Shown here piece by piece: positions 35,122 to 44,662 of a stretch of 46,850 nt of DNA. The notes beneath the pieces were generated by a model. That model worked only from the letters and a program-made list of their open reading frames with translations. It ran no database searches and was not told where the DNA came from. A program made the position numbers and the translations under genes. Within the stretch, counting starts at the first letter, position 1, and every line of letters begins with the position of its first letter. This DNA comes from Methylococcales bacterium (GTDB lineage: Bacteria > Pseudomonadota > Gammaproteobacteria > Methylococcales > Methylomonadaceae): assembly GCA_028707085.1 (NCBI GenBank), contig JAQTUW010000023.1, positions 1-46,850 of the forward strand, read 5' to 3'.

Positions 35122-35207
35122 GCTGGATTTATTTATTAAGCGCCGTGATGGCTGCGGGGGTATTTGTTTATCTGCTGGCCGCTTTATTTTTTCCGGAGAA
35201 ATTCTAA
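35118..35207 (+). CDS. kdpF: KdpF, small subunit of the K+-ATPase
   Basis: A 29-residue single-helix peptide (W-I-Y-L-L-S-A-V at the start, A-L-F-F-P-E-K-F at the end) that stabilises the KdpABC complex. Its stop overlaps the kdpA start (TAATG). Position and the P-E-K-F ending are typical. Confidence 0.88.
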   Translation: MSWIYLLSAVMAAGVFVYLLAALFFPEKF

Positions 35208-37024
35208 TGACTTCTCAAGGCTTTTTGCAAATCGGTATTTATCTGACCGCGCTGCTGCTGCTGGTCAGGCCGCTCGGCGGCTATATGGCGCGGGTATATC
35301 AGGATGAGTCGGTGGGGCTGAATCGCTGGTTCGGCGGCGTCGAAAAACTTTTATACCGCCTGAGCGGGGTAAAAGTCGATCAGGAAATGCGCTGGACGCA
35401 ATACGCCATAGCTCTACTGGTTTTCAACTTTGTCAGCTTTCTGCTGGTTTATGGTCTGCAGCGTTTTCAGGACATGCTGCCGCTGAATCCCCAAGCCCTG
35501 TCTGCGGTTAGTGCGGATTCGGCATTCAACACCGCCGTCAGTTTTGTCACCAATACCAACTGGCAGGGTTATGGCGGTGAAACGACCATGAGCGATCTGA
35601 CTCAGATGCTGGGTTTGGCCGTACAAAACTTTTTATCCGCCGCTAGCGGCATGGCGGTTCTGGTGGCGCTGATACGCGGATTTGTCCGCCGGAATACCGG
35701 TGTCATCGGTAATTTCTGGGTGGATATGACCCGCAGCACCTTGTATATCCTGTTGCCTTTGTCGCTGATTCTGGCCCTGCTGCTGGTGGGGCAGGGCGTG
35801 GTGCAGACCTTTAATCCTTATCGGGCCGTCTCCCTGCTGGAGCCGGTCAGTTATCAGACGCCTCGGCTGGATACGGCCGGCAAGGCGGTAATCGATGCCG
35901 AAGGCAAGCCTGTGACGGAAACCGTACAGAGCGGTCAGCAAACGCTGGCTATGGGGCCGGCCGCCTCACAGATTGCCATCAAGCAACTGGGCACCAATGG
36001 CGGCGGCTTCTTCAATGTCAATTCCGCCCATCCTTATGAAAATCCGACACCGCTGAGCAATTTTCTGGAAATGCTGGCCATTGTGCTGATACCAGCCGCC
36101 CTATGCTATACCTTTGGGGTCATGATAGGCGATGTTCGCCAGGGCTGGGCGATGCTGGCGGCCATGACGCTGGTGTTTGTGTCGCTGGTATTCGTCGCCG
36201 TACCGGCGGAGCAGGCCGGCAACCCGGCCTTCACGAGCCTCGGCGTGAATCAGCAGGCGTCTGAACAACAGTCCGGCGGCAATATGGAAGGCAAGGACGT
36301 TCGGTTCGGCGTGGTCAATTCCGCCCTGTGGGCGGTGGCGACCACGGCCACATCCAATGGTTCGGTTAACGCCATGCACGATTCGTTTACGCCGATAGGC
36401 GGCATGGCACCGATGTGGCTGATAGAGCTTGGCGAGGTTATCTATGGCGGAGTCGGTTCCGGATTGTACGGCATGATAATTTATGCCCTGATTGCCGTGT
36501 TTCTGGCAGGTCTGATGATAGGCCGCACCCCGGAATACCTGGGTAAAAAAATCGAGGCCTTCGAGGTGAAAATGTCCGGTATCGCCATTCTGATTTCGCC
36601 ATTGATGGTGCTGGCGGGCACGGCAATTGCGGTTATGAGCGATGCCGGCAAGGCATCCGTTTTCAATTCCGGCGCGCACGGTTTTAGCGAGGTGCTGTAC
36701 GCCTTCTCCTCGGCGGGCAATAACAACGGCAGTGCATTTGCCGGGCTTTCCGCCAATGTGCCGTTCTACAACTTCATGCTGGGACTGGCCATGCTGTTTT
36801 CCAGGTATTGGGTGATGATTCCGGTGCTGGCGATTGCCGGTTCCATGGCGGCCAAAAAGACGGTGCCTGTCGGGCCGGGTACCTTGTCAACCCATACTCC
36901 GCTGTTCGTCATGCTGCTGATCGGTTGTGTGCTGATGGTCGGGGCGCTGACTTTTGTACCCGCGCTGGCTTTAGGGCCGATAGTCGAACATTTGCAAATG
37001 AGCAGTCACGCTGCAATGAGGTAA
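35207..37024 (+). CDS. kdpA: Potassium-transporting ATPase subunit A
   Basis: A 605-residue channel-like subunit with about ten membrane helices. The four selectivity-filter loops are visible, for example [10 protein letters not shown] and [11 protein letters not shown]. It takes up K+ through a filter and passes it to KdpB. Slightly longer than the E. coli protein (557) owing to loop extensions. It overlaps kdpF and is followed by kdpB after four bases. Confidence 0.97.
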
Positions 37025-37028
37025 TCCC

Positions 37029-39128
<2,100 letters not shown>

Positions 39129-39140
39129 AGGAGAATCAAA

Positions 39141-39722
39141 GTGTCTACATATTTAAAACCCGCAGCGATGCTGCTGCTTCTGTTTACGCTGTTGACCGGC
39201 GTTATCTATCCGGCGCTGGTCACCCTGTTGGCCCAGTTGCTGTTCAAGGATCAGGCAAACGGCAGTCTGATAATGGATCAGCACAACCAGCCAGTCGGTT
39301 CGGCGCTGATCGGCCAGGCCTTCAGCGGCCCTGGCTATTTCTGGAGCCGGCCATCGGCGACTTCGCCGTACAGTTATAACGCCGGCGCTTCCAGCGGCTC
39401 CAACCTTGGCCCTACCAATCCGGCGCTGATAGAGGCCGTCGCCGGCAGAATCGCCGCGCTGAAAGCGGCCGATCCGGACAGTACCGCCGCCGTGCCGGTG
39501 GATTTGATCACTGCTTCCGGCAGCGGCCTGGATCCGCATATCAGCGTGGCGGCGGCGGAATATCAGCTCAGGCGGGTCGCCCGGGTACGGAATCTGGCGG
39601 AACCGCAAGTACAGGCACTGCTGAAGGCCAATACCGAAAACCGGCAATGGCTGGTGTTCGGCGAGCCGAGAGTCAATGTTCTGAAGCTGAATCTGGCGCT
39701 GGATCAACTGGGCGGCCGGTAA
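39141..39722 (+). CDS. kdpC: Potassium-transporting ATPase subunit C
   Basis: A 193-residue subunit with one N-terminal membrane helix. The periplasmic domain has G-S-A-L-I-G-Q-A-F, F-W-S-R-P-S-A-T-S, D-L-I-T-A-S-G-S-G-L-D-P-H-I-S and V-N-V-L-K-L-N-L-A-L-D. The start is GTG at 39141 with AGGAG eight bases upstream. It assembles the KdpA-KdpB complex. The kdpDE sensor genes that often follow are absent here. Confidence 0.95.
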   Translation: MSTYLKPAAMLLLLFTLLTGVIYPALVTLLAQLLFKDQANGSLIMDQHNQPVGSALIGQAFSGPGYFWSRPSATSPYSYNAGASSGSNLGPTNPALIEAVAGRIAALKAADPDSTAAVPVDLITASGSGLDPHISVAAAEYQLRRVARVRNLAEPQVQALLKANTENRQWLVFGEPRVNVLKLNLALDQLGGR

Positions 39723-39774: not shown

Positions 39775-40566
39775 TTAGCCGACTGGCTGACGGCAGGACG
39801 CCTTGAAAAACCGGTGTTTGATGCGCCGCCCGTTAATTCCTTTCATGCCCAGCAAACCGCTGCCGAAAATCCAGAATGCGCCGGGTATCGGCGCCGGGGT
39901 GGCGGTGCTGGTGGAATCCAGCGACGACTGAATGGCGATCTGTGCAATAAAGCTGTCGGTAGCGCCCGGCGACAGAGTAAATATCAGCTCGGCCGAACCG
40001 GGCTGGGATGCATTGTCGGTACTATAACCCGTATAGGAGCCGGCTCCGACATAATCCGATCCGGAGATGATGTTGCCGGTGTCCCAGTAGTCGAGAAAGA
40101 GGGCGCTGTTTGCATAGATTCCGTTAGCGGCTGCGTTCAGCACATAGTCCAGCGACACATCGATAGCATAGCTATCCGTCCCGGTATTGCTGAAGTTCAG
40201 GCTGAACACGCCGGTGTGCAGAGTATCGACAGTACCATATGAAACGCTATCCCCGCTAACAGAAAAGACGGCGTTAAAAGCGTTACCGGAAACCGGGGTT
40301 GAGGCAATGTCAGGCGTATCGTCCGTATAGATGCCATCGCCGCTGGCTGCGGCATAAAAATCATTACTGTCATACAGTTGTTGGAACGCACCCGAAACTG
40401 ACAGATTGGCCAGATCGCCCGGCGTGGCCGGGTTTGTATTGTAAATACTGTTAATTGTGTAGGTAATCGCCGCGGAATCGGCATAGTTCACATCGGCGCG
40501 GGCGGTTTGCATGGACGCCATCACTGCAGCCGCCAATAGCATGTGTCGATTAAAATTCGCTTTCAT
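39775..40566 (-). CDS. Secreted PEP-CTERM-type protein
   Basis: A 263-residue protein. A signal peptide (M-K-A-N-F-N-R-H-M, A-A-V-M-A-S-M, ending T-A-R-A) is followed by a serine/threonine-, asparagine- and glycine-rich body. The C-terminus is P-I-P-G-A-F-W-I-F-G-S-G-L-L-G-M with a basic tail, a variant of the VPLPA/PEP-CTERM sorting signal. Such proteins are processed by exosortase and surface-attached. The ATG at 40566 is preceded by AGGAT and gives the signal peptide; a longer frame exists. It is the last gene of a three-gene minus-strand cluster, 74 bases after the dihaem gene. Confidence 0.75.
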   Translation of the reverse strand: MKANFNRHMLLAAAVMASMQTARADVNYADSAAITYTINSIYNTNPATPGDLANLSVSGAFQQLYDSNDFYAAASGDGIYTDDTPDIASTPVSGNAFNAVFSVSGDSVSYGTVDTLHTGVFSLNFSNTGTDSYAIDVSLDYVLNAAANGIYANSALFLDYWDTGNIISGSDYVGAGSYTGYSTDNASQPGSAELIFTLSPGATDSFIAQIAIQSSLDSTSTATPAPIPGAFWIFGSGLLGMKGINGRRIKHRFFKASCRQPVG

Positions 40567-40640
40567 TGAGCTTATCCTGAAATTGATGAGTTGATGCCGG
40601 ACAGGTCTGTTCCGGCCAGACCTGTGCAATTTGTATGCGG

Positions 40641-42917
40641 TTATTGCGGCGCCGATAAAAATGCCGGTAGCGGCGTGGCTGAGCCACCGGCGCCTACCGC
40701 CGGAACGACCAGAAACTGATCCTGAGCCAGGTGGGCATTCAGCGGATTGCCGGCTGTCACTTGCAGTTCATTGCCGGTCTGGCCGTTCGGGACGATCAAC
40801 TGCGGATGATCGAACGGCGCTTGCTGGTATCTGACTCTTTCGTCAGTTAATGAAAGCAGGAAATTAGTCAGATCGGCTGTGTTTTGCGCCGAGCTCAGCA
40901 AAGATGAGATGGCCCCCAGATCGAAATGCAGCGTGTTGCTGGCGAAATTGCCATGTCTGGCATAGAACTGTATGACCTGCGCCAAGGTCGCCATGCCGCC
41001 GTTATGCATGTAGGGGCCGGTCAGTTCGACATTACGCAAGGTAGGCGCCTTGAAGGCCGCCTGAGTGGCGACCGCCATTTTCGGGCCTGACTGATTGGCT
41101 TGCGCCGCCGCGATGGTCGGAATATAGGCCATTGCCGGATTGGCGCAGTTCTGATTGCGCAGGACGCCTTCGCGGCTGCCATCCGGCATCAGTCCGTCGC
41201 TGGGCAGGAAGTAATTGGCGGTATTGAGTTGCACATCGTAAGCCAGACCGGTAATGAAATCGCAGGCGCGAATATTGCCGAGAGGCAGGTCGATGATGTC
41301 CGCCGAATTGCCCAGCAGATAACTGCTGTATTGCGCACTGTAGGACAAGGGATTGCCGAAGGCGTCTGCTCCGTTTACGCCCGGGTCGGCATTGGGATCG
41401 GTTACGCCGATATTGACATAGCCCAGATCCATCAGCTTTGGCAGCAGTTGGCTGTTGAAATCCCGGGTCACCGGATTGACATACGGGCTCATGCCCGCGA
41501 CGGAGGCGGCGGCATAGGGGCCGAACGCATCCGGCCCGTAGGCTATAGGCGTGTCCGGGGGGCCAAAGCGGCTGCCGGCAACCGGCGTCAGCAGAGCGGC
41601 GTTGGTGGCGACTGCCGCCAGACTCATGGCTGGCCCGGCATGGCAAAGATTGCAGTTGTTGCTGGTAAACAGATTGAAGCCGTTTTTTAGCGAAGCCACC
41701 AGCGTTGCGGTATCTGCCGGCGTGTTTGCAACGATATTGCTCCAGGTCGGTTTCATGTTGGCGTCAAGCGGGCTCAGATCGAAAGGTGACTGGTCGGACA
41801 CCAGGGTGGATTCATAAAGCTGTACGGCAAGGCCGAAAAACATGGAAAAATTAGCTTCCATCTGATTGTAAGGCGCTCCGCCGGCGGCGGGCGAGCCGAA
41901 TTTGCCGATACCGCCGTAGGCCCAGTATTTCTGGTTGAATGCCTGGGTGATCATGTTCCTGTAGAGTGTCTTCAAGCCTGGTTGCAGATTGCCGTTGCTG
42001 CTCAGGCTCAACGGGCCCAAGACGCTGTCCTGATTATGTACCTGCTGGTATTGCAAGGGCTGGCGCAGTAACAGCTTGCGGCCTATGTCCGGCCAGGTTC
42101 TTGATGCACAGCCCATTTCGACATTGTTAAAGACCGGCGGGGTAACCGCCTGAGAGGCCAGAGAAGAATTGATCAGATTCAGGCGCTGCTTGTTGACGGT
42201 GGCGGCGTTTATTTTTACCCAGACGCCGGCATCGGGATCGCGAAGCCCCCAGGGGCTGCTGCCGTTGAAGACATTGCTGGCCCTGCCATCCCAGAAATTG
42301 CGGTGGTTAAAAACCGCGTTGATGACGGTAGGCGCATTTCTGGGTTCAACTTTGCGCACGCCAATGCCGTATACATTAAAAATGGTGTCCGCGCTACGCG
42401 CGCACTGGTCGTTCGTGCCGCTAAACTGCGAGGCGCCGGCAAACTGGCCGCTGAAAGCGCCGGCCGAGCCCACCACATCGTCGGTGCTAAAAATGACCTG
42501 ACTGGTATTGCTGAGAGGATTGCTGAACTGCTGAAAAGGAAAATCTTCAGACGTCAGGACATGATTGGGGCCGCCGGTTCCGGAAGGCAGTGCGGAGAAA
42601 CTCTGGCCACTAGGGTAAATGCTGTTTTGTCCCGGATTGATCTGATTCTTGATGCGGCCATCCGCACCGGCGCTAAAATGGCAGGAAGCGCAGGCCTGTC
42701 CGTCGCTGCCGACATTGCTATCCCAAAACAGCGCCTTGCCCAGGGCAATCGCCATGTTTTTATTGATGACGATCGGATCGTCGCCATCCAGCAGGCCGGG
42801 TGTTGGCGGAATCGGCACGTTTTGCAAGGAAACCGGCACCGGGCCGTTCGCCAGTGCGGTCTGCATGCCGGGCAGGCCGGCGGCAAAAATGAATGTATAA
42901 AAATAAAAAGCGCGCAT
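40641..42917 (-). CDS. Dihaem MauG/cytochrome-c-peroxidase-like protein
   Basis: About 758 residues from the preferred ATG at 42917, with GGGGA upstream and a signal peptide (F-I-F-A-A-G-L-P-G-M). A second ATG eight codons earlier is in frame. Numbered from that first ATG, the two haem sites are C84-A-S-C-H88 and C430-N-L-C-H434. Also present are F-N-H-R-N-F-W-D-G-R-A and the second-haem Y-M-H-N-G-G-M-A-T-L. It is far larger than classical CcpA (about 330), with long insertions. Substrate unknown; such proteins in methanotrophs are reported as surface-associated, including copper-responsive forms. Periplasmic or outer-face. Confidence 0.85.
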   Translation of the reverse strand: MRAFYFYTFIFAAGLPGMQTALANGPVPVSLQNVPIPPTPGLLDGDDPIVINKNMAIALGKALFWDSNVGSDGQACASCHFSAGADGRIKNQINPGQNSIYPSGQSFSALPSGTGGPNHVLTSEDFPFQQFSNPLSNTSQVIFSTDDVVGSAGAFSGQFAGASQFSGTNDQCARSADTIFNVYGIGVRKVEPRNAPTVINAVFNHRNFWDGRASNVFNGSSPWGLRDPDAGVWVKINAATVNKQRLNLINSSLASQAVTPPVFNNVEMGCASRTWPDIGRKLLLRQPLQYQQVHNQDSVLGPLSLSSNGNLQPGLKTLYRNMITQAFNQKYWAYGGIGKFGSPAAGGAPYNQMEANFSMFFGLAVQLYESTLVSDQSPFDLSPLDANMKPTWSNIVANTPADTATLVASLKNGFNLFTSNNCNLCHAGPAMSLAAVATNAALLTPVAGSRFGPPDTPIAYGPDAFGPYAAASVAGMSPYVNPVTRDFNSQLLPKLMDLGYVNIGVTDPNADPGVNGADAFGNPLSYSAQYSSYLLGNSADIIDLPLGNIRACDFITGLAYDVQLNTANYFLPSDGLMPDGSREGVLRNQNCANPAMAYIPTIAAAQANQSGPKMAVATQAAFKAPTLRNVELTGPYMHNGGMATLAQVIQFYARHGNFASNTLHFDLGAISSLLSSAQNTADLTNFLLSLTDERVRYQQAPFDHPQLIVPNGQTGNELQVTAGNPLNAHLAQDQFLVVPAVGAGGSATPLPAFLSAPQ

Positions 42918-42960
42918 GTAATCCCCGTTGACAGAGGCCATCCCTGGCGATGAATCAAAT

Positions 42961-43998
42961 TTAGGCGGCTAAAATCGGGCTCAGGCGTTTGCGGAAATTA
43001 CCCAGGCCGATTGCAAACAGACCGCCAAACATCAAAACAGCCGACGCTGGAAGCGGCACGCTGGTAACGGCAACCACCGTCAGACTTTCCAGATTGGAAA
43101 CATAACGTCCGGCCTTGGCGTCTCCAGGCGCGACAATGCGGGCAAAACCGCTGCTGCCCAGCGAGGCCCCGGCGCCGGTGGCGTAGGCCACCAAATCGTT
43201 TTGATTGCCGTACAGGGGATTGAGCTCTTCAAGCGAAAAGATGGACTGATAGTTGTCGGAGCCGGTGGCGATGACATATTCGTTGGCAAGCGTGGCGGGG
43301 TCGGTCGAAAGGCCGTCCTGAACCAGCATGTCCCACAGCGATACGCCGGTAAACGATTGGCCGGTCACCGGCGGGGTACTCACGGTCAACACCTGGGTCG
43401 TCAGCGTGCCGGGCAAATCGCTGGCGGTGTAGGTTGTCGATGCGCTCAGATCGCCGTTCACGGTAAGCGTGGTGGAAACGCCGCCTGCGCCGGCGCCTGC
43501 ATAGCCGACATGCCCGACATCCAGGCTGCTTAGATTGGTAATGCTGGAACCATCAGCGGCAATCAGGCTTGCGCCGGTGAGCGTTCCGTTGCTATCACTG
43601 TAGGCGATGATGTCGTTCAGCGTGCCGAAGCCGCTGCCATTCAAACTGCCCAAGGCATAAACCGTGCTGGAGCCATCGCTGCCGGTGGCGACGGCATAGT
43701 CGCGTAAAATATCGTTTTTGGGCACCGTTGGATCGGTTGCTACATACGAATCAAGGTAACTAAATAAGGAAACGCCGGTGTAAACATCGCTGCCTACGGT
43801 CACGGTGGTAACGGCGGCAGGGTTGCTGGCTGCGAAGCTTTGCAGGCTGGCGAGATCAAAACTGCCCGGACTGCCGGCGTTCAAATATCCGCCAAGATTG
43901 ACCGCTGTATCGGAAAAGGCCGCTGTTGCCGAAGTCAATAAAATCAGCGCCGTTCCGAGGGCTAGGGCGTCGCGTTTGTAAGGTCTGGCTTTTAACAT
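42961..43998 (-). CDS. Secreted protein with two molybdopterin-oxidoreductase-like repeats and PEP-CTERM signal
   Basis: A 345-residue protein. The N-terminal basic-hydrophobic stretch is a signal peptide. Two similar repeats follow: repeat 1 has Y-T-G-V-S-L-F-S-Y-L...Y-A-V-A-T-G-S-D-G-S-S, repeat 2 has F-T-G-V-S-L-W-D-M-L...Y-V-I-A-T-G-S-D-N-Y-Q, then R-Y-V-S-N-L-E-S-L. These resemble the C-terminal half of oxidoreductase molybdopterin-binding proteins, but no cofactor-ligating cysteine is seen. The C-terminus is V-P-L-P-A-S-A-V-L-M-F-G-G, then a helix and basic tail, a VPLPA-type sorting signal. First gene of the cluster; 43 bases to the dihaem gene. Confidence 0.78.
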   Translation of the reverse strand: MLKARPYKRDALALGTALILLTSATAAFSDTAVNLGGYLNAGSPGSFDLASLQSFAASNPAAVTTVTVGSDVYTGVSLFSYLDSYVATDPTVPKNDILRDYAVATGSDGSSTVYALGSLNGSGFGTLNDIIAYSDSNGTLTGASLIAADGSSITNLSSLDVGHVGYAGAGAGGVSTTLTVNGDLSASTTYTASDLPGTLTTQVLTVSTPPVTGQSFTGVSLWDMLVQDGLSTDPATLANEYVIATGSDNYQSIFSLEELNPLYGNQNDLVAYATGAGASLGSSGFARIVAPGDAKAGRYVSNLESLTVVAVTSVPLPASAVLMFGGLFAIGLGNFRKRLSPILAA

Positions 43999-44662
43999 GT
44001 TTTATCCTTGATTGAGTAAAAAAACGCCGCGAGCGATGCTTGACCATTCTGCGGCTGGCGAGAGTTGCGCGTACCTGCGCTGTTCAGATTCACTGCCTCC
44101 GTTCCGTTTAACCTGAATGTTCCAACAGCATTTCTCTCCGTATGCAGGACAGCGGCCAAAGCCATTTCTCTTTTCGCCTGCCAGCAAGCAAGTCAGACAG
44201 AGAGGTTCCATTCAATCGGCGGTGTTAAAAGTTAAAGCGGCCAAAGGCCGGTCGCTAAACCCTAACGATATATACCAATGTACATAACGTTAAGCGGTTT
44301 TCTAAGTTGCGTCAATGAGGCCTTAAAGAATTTACTGTTTCTTTTTAGGAAACAATGCGGGCTGGCGGCGTGCAGTATGGATTTGTCGATGCCATGGTCT
44401 GGAATCTGGAAGGCTATGCCTGGATTTTCAGGAGGTCGTAATGATGGCCGTGGCTGTCAGTGTCGGATGCTCAGGAAAACCATGCTTCGGCATGGCTTTG
44501 CCAGGTTCATCATTGGCAGGTTAAACGGCAAGTCATTCCCGGAAGGCCGGGAGCAGGTCGGGGTGAACAGATAGGATAAACGCAATCTTTCCTTAATTTA
44601 ACAGTATTGTCTTTTTTCCGGGATCCCCCACCGTTCGGCTATACTCCCGACAGGCTTTCCTG
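43999..44662. other. Large intergenic stretch
   Basis: Contains the sigma-54-like site and a small hairpin CGGCC-AAA-GGCCG (44238-44250), followed on the minus strand by TTTAAC and TTTT. Plus-strand frame 44278-44574 has no ribosome binding site and no recognisable sequence. No gene is called. Confidence 0.5.
44142..44159 (-). promoter_or_regulatory. Sigma-54-like site upstream of the PEP-CTERM/dihaem cluster
   Basis: On the minus strand TTGGCCGCTGTCCTGCAT has GG and GC separated by ten bases, as in the -24/-12 consensus (TTGGCAC-N4-TTGCA). It lies about 145 bases upstream of the first gene. Some PEP-CTERM systems are sigma-54 controlled. A chance match is possible. Confidence 0.35.

Follow-up and report, generated by a model that had tools for sequence, protein, structure and literature searches.

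What kind of system is encoded by three consecutive genes, here called P1, P2 and P3, on contig JAQTUW010000023.1 of a Methylococcales bacterium (assembly GCA_028707085.1)? The window, by which we mean the whole analyzed stretch of 46,850 nucleotides, had been the subject of an original prediction in which two secreted proteins with PEP-CTERM-like sorting tails (P1 and P3) flank an oversized dihaem protein (P2), the trio being without recognized kin. The arrangement was confirmed from the minus-strand open reading frames (ORFs): all three genes share one orientation, with intergenic gaps of 43 bases (P1-P2) and 74 bases (P2-P3). Our analysis indicates, with a probability of roughly 70%, that the three genes form a variant of a copper-repressible methanotroph surface system, MopE/SACCP (CorA/CorB), in which the client upstream of the dihaem enzyme has been exchanged for P1.

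The dihaem enzyme P2 and its partners

P2 was found to contain exactly two CxxCH sites and a CCP_MauG domain (Pfam, expectation value (E) 4e-17), which upholds its original description as a dihaem MauG/peroxidase-like protein of 758 residues. It aligned end to end (42% identity, 757 columns) with a 773-residue dihaem protein of genome G054, the ORF of which overlaps by 4 bases a 553-residue ORF for MopE (PDB 2vov, E 4.5e-213); given this MopE identity we read the genome as Methylococcus capsulatus or close kin, and its dihaem protein would then be SACCP. P2 was also 41% identical over 754 columns to a CorB-type protein of Methylomicrobium sp. RS1 (locus L219), whose gene comes after a CorA gene matching PF18252 (4e-89). 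With two CxxCH sites, a CCP_MauG domain and collinearity (approximately 700-780 residues) with the proteins beside MopE and CorA, P2 is by sequence a full-length member of the SACCP/CorB dihaem family. In a FastTree tree of 120 P2 proteins of 600-900 residues and that of the window, all 121 members have at least two CxxCH sites and 117 carry the FWDGR motif, the tryptophan of which presumably sits between the haems as in MauG-type enzymes. The median length is 750 residues, so the size of P2 is normal in its family and it can no longer be called a giant; nor does the trio lack recognized kin, since pairing of this family with a secreted or surface partner is already known.

For the survey of gene context we sampled the genus and order with 60 fetched stretches and added 79 loci taken from the best 80 of at least 560 relatives; genes were called as longest ORFs, and removal of near-identical P2 copies left 125 P2 loci. 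P3 proved to be a standing neighbor of P2. Large P2 genes (E below 1e-240) were present in 30 of the 37 genus genomes searched, while G030 gave only a truncated, more distant match, and P3 follows the large P2 in 29 of the 30, the exception being G019. These 29 are made up of 27 genomes in the context table, G025 (whose P2 duplicates that of G036) and the window. Counted per locus, P3 accompanies P2 at 30 of 46 genus loci and 46 of all 125, and 11 of the 16 genus loci without P3 have a partner of family A5, described below. The P3 model is a predicted beta-sandwich (predicted local distance difference test score, pLDDT, 81). Comparison of its profile with solved structures gave nothing convincing, and a fold search returned a single match under 0.001, Bdellovibrio Bd1399 (E 3.7e-4, template modelling (TM) scores 0.36/0.54), with neither CorA nor MopE among the best 50 of 967 matches. 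P3 was also considered as a diverged CorA and rejected by profile comparison.

Upstream neighbors were defined as genes on the same strand within 700 bases, and a class label required 30 bits to a family profile; such labels could partly reflect shared tails. At the 125 loci, among which the window's own P1 is not counted, the upstream slot was occupied by CorA (14), by A5 (28), A8 (10), A9 (9), A10 (14), B5 (5) or P1 (2), or by an unclassified protein (19), with no gene or one on the opposite strand at 22 and a contig edge at 2. CorA or the tailed families A5, A8, A9 and A10 therefore fill this slot at 75 of 125 loci; CorA/MopE lies downstream of P2 in two. Excerpts of the literature describe the surface location and copper repression of SACCP (PMC4831470, PMC3912023), and the copper ligands of CorA as Kyn62, His64 and His114 (PMC3912023). 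The W-x-H motif of this copper site was found in 62 of the 125 upstream proteins and in 14 of 14 within the CorA clades. A5 partners occur in Nitrosomonas, Nitrosovibrio, Burkholderiales and a second Methylomonas group; the CorA profile matched A5 with 95% probability, with the Kyn62-x-His64 position aligned with the A5 W-x-H. Matches to PF18252 were obtained for three of seven Pfam-scanned A5 proteins (26.7, 23.4 and 21.2 bits, all under the cut-off of 27), and these three also carry PEP-CTERM matches over the cut-off. In a third P2 clade P3 is found downstream and PEP-CTERM proteins of families A8, A9 or A10 upstream. Resemblance to CorA by profile was 83.5% for A9 and weak for A8 (43%); A10 was rejected as CorA-like although it has a W-x-H near its C-terminus, and B5 was rejected likewise.

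In the PEP-tailed ORFs of the loci fetched, the motif W-x-H was carried by 33 of the 56 upstream partners and by 1 of the 47 downstream ones; the other ORFs, an unfiltered set, had it in 38 of 150 cases (Fisher, 1.3e-5 for upstream against others and 9.9e-11 for upstream against downstream, p-values which overstate independence as the sequences are related). Alternative spacings in the same 56 upstream partners numbered 6 (WH), 4 (W..H) and 5 (W...H). PEP-CTERM-tailed CorA-like proteins with W-x-H were also observed directly before SACCP/CorB-type genes in ammonia oxidizers (L180, L181, L190 and others; Nitrosomonas, Burkholderiales). Among the open-licence PMC articles listed, no title or abstract opening mentions PEP-CTERM partners of CorB/SACCP or P1 with a dihaem protein.

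The window's P2 falls among 11 leaves that form a clade (support 1.0): those of the window, L092, L093, L095, L097 and L098, one of L099, and two apiece of L094 and L096. Of these, L097 and L098, which come from G005 and G034, are nearly identical loci. W-x-H is absent from all 11 upstream proteins of this clade. Three of them are P1 (window, G013 and G005), five are B5, and the remaining three are labelled A9 or A10. Within the clade the window is placed with the B5 carriers, at a weak support of 0.48, hence P1 may have been gained there once or twice. In G013, G005 and G034 (L094-L098) two to three SACCP-type cassettes with differing upstream partners are arrayed in one chromosomal region.

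P1, a duplicated molybdopterin-oxidoreductase-like protein

The internal duplication claimed for P1 was confirmed, the two halves sharing 35% identity over 108 columns (E = 2e-10). Its likeness to molybdopterin oxidoreductases was found to hold only indirectly. Neither P1 nor its separate halves matched Pfam, including PF00174, and the P1 profile matched no solved structure up to E 10; however, the P1 family aligned by hhalign with small single-domain relatives at 99.9%, and among these a Deinococcus protein matches PF00174 at 6.4e-12 (positions 13-145) and one of G060 at 0.0022 (18.0 bits, under the cut-off of 24; positions 62-160 of 169). As the link to PF00174 runs solely through such small relatives, the resemblance appears real but remote. 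It was repeat 2 that best matched the single-domain relatives, as well as a Deinococcus protein carrying the annotation molybdopterin-dependent oxidoreductase. The single tryptophan of P1 lies in this repeat and is kept in 9 of 10 alignment rows, that of the window included. P1 was rejected as a diverged CorA by profile comparison, and its match to A5 is confined to the tails.

Two-domain P1 was found in 14 genomes, 12 of the genus (the window's included) and two of another family (G095, G068), weaker matches (E above 1e-7, mostly tails) being left out of the P1 counts for the order. It stands directly before a large P2 in three genomes, those of the window, G013 and G005, and directly before a 385-residue dihaem gene in G018; its G034 copy is found at the end of a contig, and in G095 a large P2 is approximately 2.2 kb away on the other strand. 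Contiguous P1, P2 and P3 thus recur in G013, G005 and possibly G034, but the three genes are not conserved together as one unit. Single-domain relatives were present in 11 further genomes of 201 sampled from the order, and every one of the 11 is located directly before a same-strand gene whose product of 448-484 residues has two CxxCH sites. This conserved Methylococcales two-gene unit, a small secreted Oxidored_molyb-like protein followed by a dihaem protein, is seen at L274-L283 and L142.

Other genes were noted in the vicinity of P1 relatives. TOBE/HTH (ModE-type) genes lie near the single-domain forms of G204 and G067, and an SBP_bac_11 (ModA-type) gene near the two-domain P1 of G068. In the phylum sample, small P1-domain relatives were found in 8 of 397 other genomes (E up to 1e-12), of which that of L295 has ModA- and ModE-like genes nearby, as judged by eye. 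The Deinococcus relative adjoins modA. No relatives were found in viral contigs, and one in plasmids, that of Deinococcus. At L137, L138-L141 and L134 a secreted-looking protein of approximately 542 residues (substrate-binding-like by eye) and a PEP-CTERM-tailed protein of approximately 265-285 residues lie near P1 homologues, and proteins of approximately 555 residues resembling the former occur near the single-domain form in some genomes. The two proteins of the 542-residue type that were scanned, one from L137/L138-L141/L134 and one from L283, had no Pfam match.

Sorting signals, host genome and locus layout

The genome containing the window (3.02 Mb, 73 contigs, completeness 99.89) has matches to PF02461 (pMMO) and PF02332 (sMMO-type), and its bearer is read as a methanotroph, probably of the genus Methylomonas. 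A search for exosortase genes, which the original prediction had proposed, yielded two PF09721 matches (2.0e-75 and 8.1e-73). Among 18 PF07589 matches in this genome neither P1 nor P3 was included; P1 scored under the cut-off of the VPLPA-CTERM model (Table 1), and P3 matched no sorting-signal model. Nonetheless the PEP-CTERM pattern of a proline motif, a transmembrane stretch and a basic end is visible and conserved in the alignments of both proteins (25 rows for the P3 family). The proposed tails on P1 and P3 are therefore plausible from the alignments while falling short of the curated models; signal peptides of both were judged by eye. With a P2 of a dihaem family between them, the idea of a cluster of exported redox and tailed proteins was borne out at the level of predicted features. 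No PF18252 match was found in the genome at E up to 1, so that a CorA-like protein elsewhere was rejected by this model; the A5 profile gave 17 matches, mostly in its C-terminal part, and ORFs were read at two of eight loci.

Table 1. Position of the three genes and of features within or near them (window coordinates)
Feature	Coordinates	Strand	Remarks
P1	42961..43998	-	345 residues; duplicated truncated Oxidored_molyb-like domain, VPLPA-type C-terminal tail
P1 repeat 1	43501..43893	-	residues ~36-166
P1 repeat 2	43066..43476	-	residues ~175-311
P1 C-terminal sorting-like tail (VPLPASAVLMFGG...RKR)	42964..43059	-	20.0 bits, cut-off 25.35
P2	40641..42917	-	758 residues from internal ATG; longest ORF begins 42941, 766 residues
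P2 first haem site CASCH	42678..42692	-	Cys, Cys, His invariant in alignment A11
P2 FWDGR motif	42282..42296	-	aligns with solved dihaem enzymes
P2 second haem site CNLCH	41640..41654	-	Cys, Cys, His invariant in alignment A11
P3	39775..40566	-	263 residues from its ATG; predicted beta-sandwich, PEP-CTERM-like tail
Weak sigma-54-like site	44143..44158	-	begins 160 nt before P1 start

No terminator-like site was found on the minus strand within either gap. The sigma-54-like site noted earlier upstream of P1 is present with its GG/GC core, but has 3 mismatches at 11 fixed positions, and 3 mismatches or better occur in approximately 23% of random stretches, so it is not beyond chance. Across the family, 41 of 121 cassettes have an upstream site that keeps the GG/GC core with no more than 2 mismatches, against 6.9 expected, a rough contrast in that the expectation derives from random 350-base stretches of fetched loci which are largely coding. 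The family-wide enrichment looks real, while the window's own site is poor evidence. In the table for the window's branch (L098 left out), L099_11505 has sites with 2 mismatches and L094_9128 one with 3, the other cassettes given having 4 or 5. Sigma-54 control as evidence for an operon in the window was therefore rejected, the site being no better than chance and mostly not kept in the nearest cassettes. A count of sigma-70-like promoters gave 0 against 3.3 expected.

Beyond the cluster, potassium-transport genes at 35207-39722 (plus strand), which we take to be kdpA, kdpB and kdpC, converge on the P3 gene. A short plus-strand gene at 44872-45426 matches glycosyltransferase family 41 over positions 424-528 of 543 only and, given this partial match, is probably a truncated remnant.

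Readings of the cluster

As P1 is not CorA-like and the genome has no PF18252 match, P2 was assigned to the enzyme family and the cluster is read as a variant rather than as a CorA/CorB pair. Like the MopE/SACCP system of M. capsulatus it has a full-length SACCP-type dihaem protein; unlike it, the cluster has P1 in the upstream slot, an extra P3 and sorting-like tails, in a genome lacking a PF18252 match. Like CorA/CorB of Methylomicrobium album BG8 and M. alcaliphilum 20Z, it encodes a secreted partner immediately upstream of a CorB-type dihaem gene; unlike CorA, P1 lacks W-x-H and a profile relationship to that protein. MbnH is a dihaem enzyme beside a protein client. P2 shares the dihaem fold of the MbnP/MbnH and MauG/methylamine dehydrogenase systems but is about twice as long, has other partners and scores under both curated cut-offs (MbnH family, 82.3 bits against 362.85; MauG, 61.8 bits against 443.85). 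Comparative sequence evidence supports the family of P2, the presence of P3 beside it, the identity of the upstream slot, the absence of W-x-H in the branch, the duplication of P1 and the dihaem pairing of P1 relatives.

On the reading of an exchanged client, all three proteins would be exported, an exosortase would process the tails of P1 and P3 and hold both at the cell surface, and P2 would stay close by. P2 would reach a high-valent dihaem state using peroxide or oxygen and then oxidize a partner protein. Excerpts of PMC3912023 suggest for CorB and SACCP that a tryptophan of the partner is oxidized to kynurenine, aiding copper binding. P2 may retain this type of chemistry with the client swapped in the window's branch and P3 as its constant companion; on P1 or P3 the residue targeted would then have to differ from that of CorA. 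That P2 oxidizes P1 or P3 we advance tentatively and put at clearly below even odds. More speculative still is a wider proposal in which SACCP/CorB forms a platform with an exchangeable surface-anchored client (CorA, tailed CorA-like proteins, other W-x-H proteins and then the unrelated B5 and P1); P1 would be a new class of client, derived from a molybdopterin-domain protein already paired with a different dihaem enzyme, and oxidized P1 might become a surface cofactor or metal site.

Several observations weigh against the preferred reading. W-x-H was found at only 14 of 28 A5 loci and is thus not universal in CorA-like partners. It is absent from P1 and P3, and the P1 tryptophan is tyrosine in G013, itself a member of the trio, so the known CorA chemistry is not simply transferable. 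Of the 14 genomes with two-domain P1, only 4 have it next to a dihaem gene and 8 have no dihaem gene adjacent to it; outside Methylococcales the 10 kb read around each of the 8 small relatives contains no CxxCH protein, which, set against the 11 of 11 within the order, makes the dihaem pairing of the P1 domain a Methylococcales trait in these samples. Sigma-54-like sites are absent or weak across most of the window's branch. Excerpts of PMC3912023 and PMC11784148 describe faster growth on methane of an M. alcaliphilum corB mutant and suggest that copper binding by the partner may not require the enzyme. Finally, the nearest solved structure to P2 by sequence profile was a classical dihaem peroxidase of Nitrosomonas (1iqc, 2e-24), the MbnH-type 6e1c ranking third (9.4e-22).

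This last result, with the CCP_MauG domain and the many genomes in which P1 has no dihaem neighbor, would suit a P2 that acts as a surface or periplasmic peroxidase removing peroxide, with P1 and P3 as surface proteins which merely share its operon. A Foldseek search with the AlphaFold model of P2 (pLDDT 84.8) bears on both sides of this question. The best E-values were those of MauG (4.6e-5) and 6e1c (7.4e-5), and chains of these two made up the first 27 matches; the TM-scores (query/target) were 0.29/0.57 for MauG and 0.27/0.55 for 6e1c, whereas the peroxidases 4aam and 1iqc gave weaker E-values but slightly higher target TM-scores of 0.60 and 0.62. With this mixed ranking, structure cannot separate a peroxidase from a protein oxidase, and the fold search was set aside as proof of MauG-type chemistry. 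The constancy of P3 after large P2 genes and the prevalence of CorA or tailed proteins in the upstream slot speak against the peroxidase, which we regard as unlikely. The ties of the P2 family to CorA and MopE, together with the well-kept tryptophan of P1, could instead mean that the copper function has been retained, P2 converting a tryptophan of P1 or P3 to kynurenine and the product binding copper. The lack of W-x-H and the tyrosine of the G013 trio count against this, as do the profiles, which relate neither protein to CorA, and the P3 family alignment, in which the sole widely conserved tryptophan lies in the sorting tail; we consider such a function very unlikely.

In SorA-SorB and SoxC-SoxD, a PF00174-type molybdoenzyme subunit passes electrons to a c-type haem partner. 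P1 might similarly be a working molybdoenzyme subunit with P2 as acceptor: its small relatives match PF00174, pair with dihaem proteins in the order and in some cases lie near ModE/TOBE-type or ModA genes, and one of the two single-domain relatives scanned scored weakly to the SoxC and SorA models. However, P1 is truncated and duplicated and, unlike the SorAB and SoxCD subunits, has no cysteine. Molybdenum in such enzymes is normally ligated by a cysteine thiolate, so the usual ligand cannot come from P1; moreover, the coverage of PF00174 by the relatives is partial, and the ORFs read in the window included no mod genes. This is the least probable of the readings considered here.

The surprising part of these results is the exchange of partners on a conserved dihaem enzyme, including CorA-like partners with sorting tails in ammonia oxidizers; also surprising is that, within one order, a truncated domain of molybdopterin type is repeatedly paired with dihaem genes. 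For copper handling at the methanotroph surface and the role of the large dihaem enzymes beside CorA and MopE, the same enzyme family with tailed CorA-like partners, with P3, and with partners lacking the copper motif offers natural comparisons. If an enzyme of the P2 type oxidizes its neighbor, the cases with swapped partners would predict a different product.

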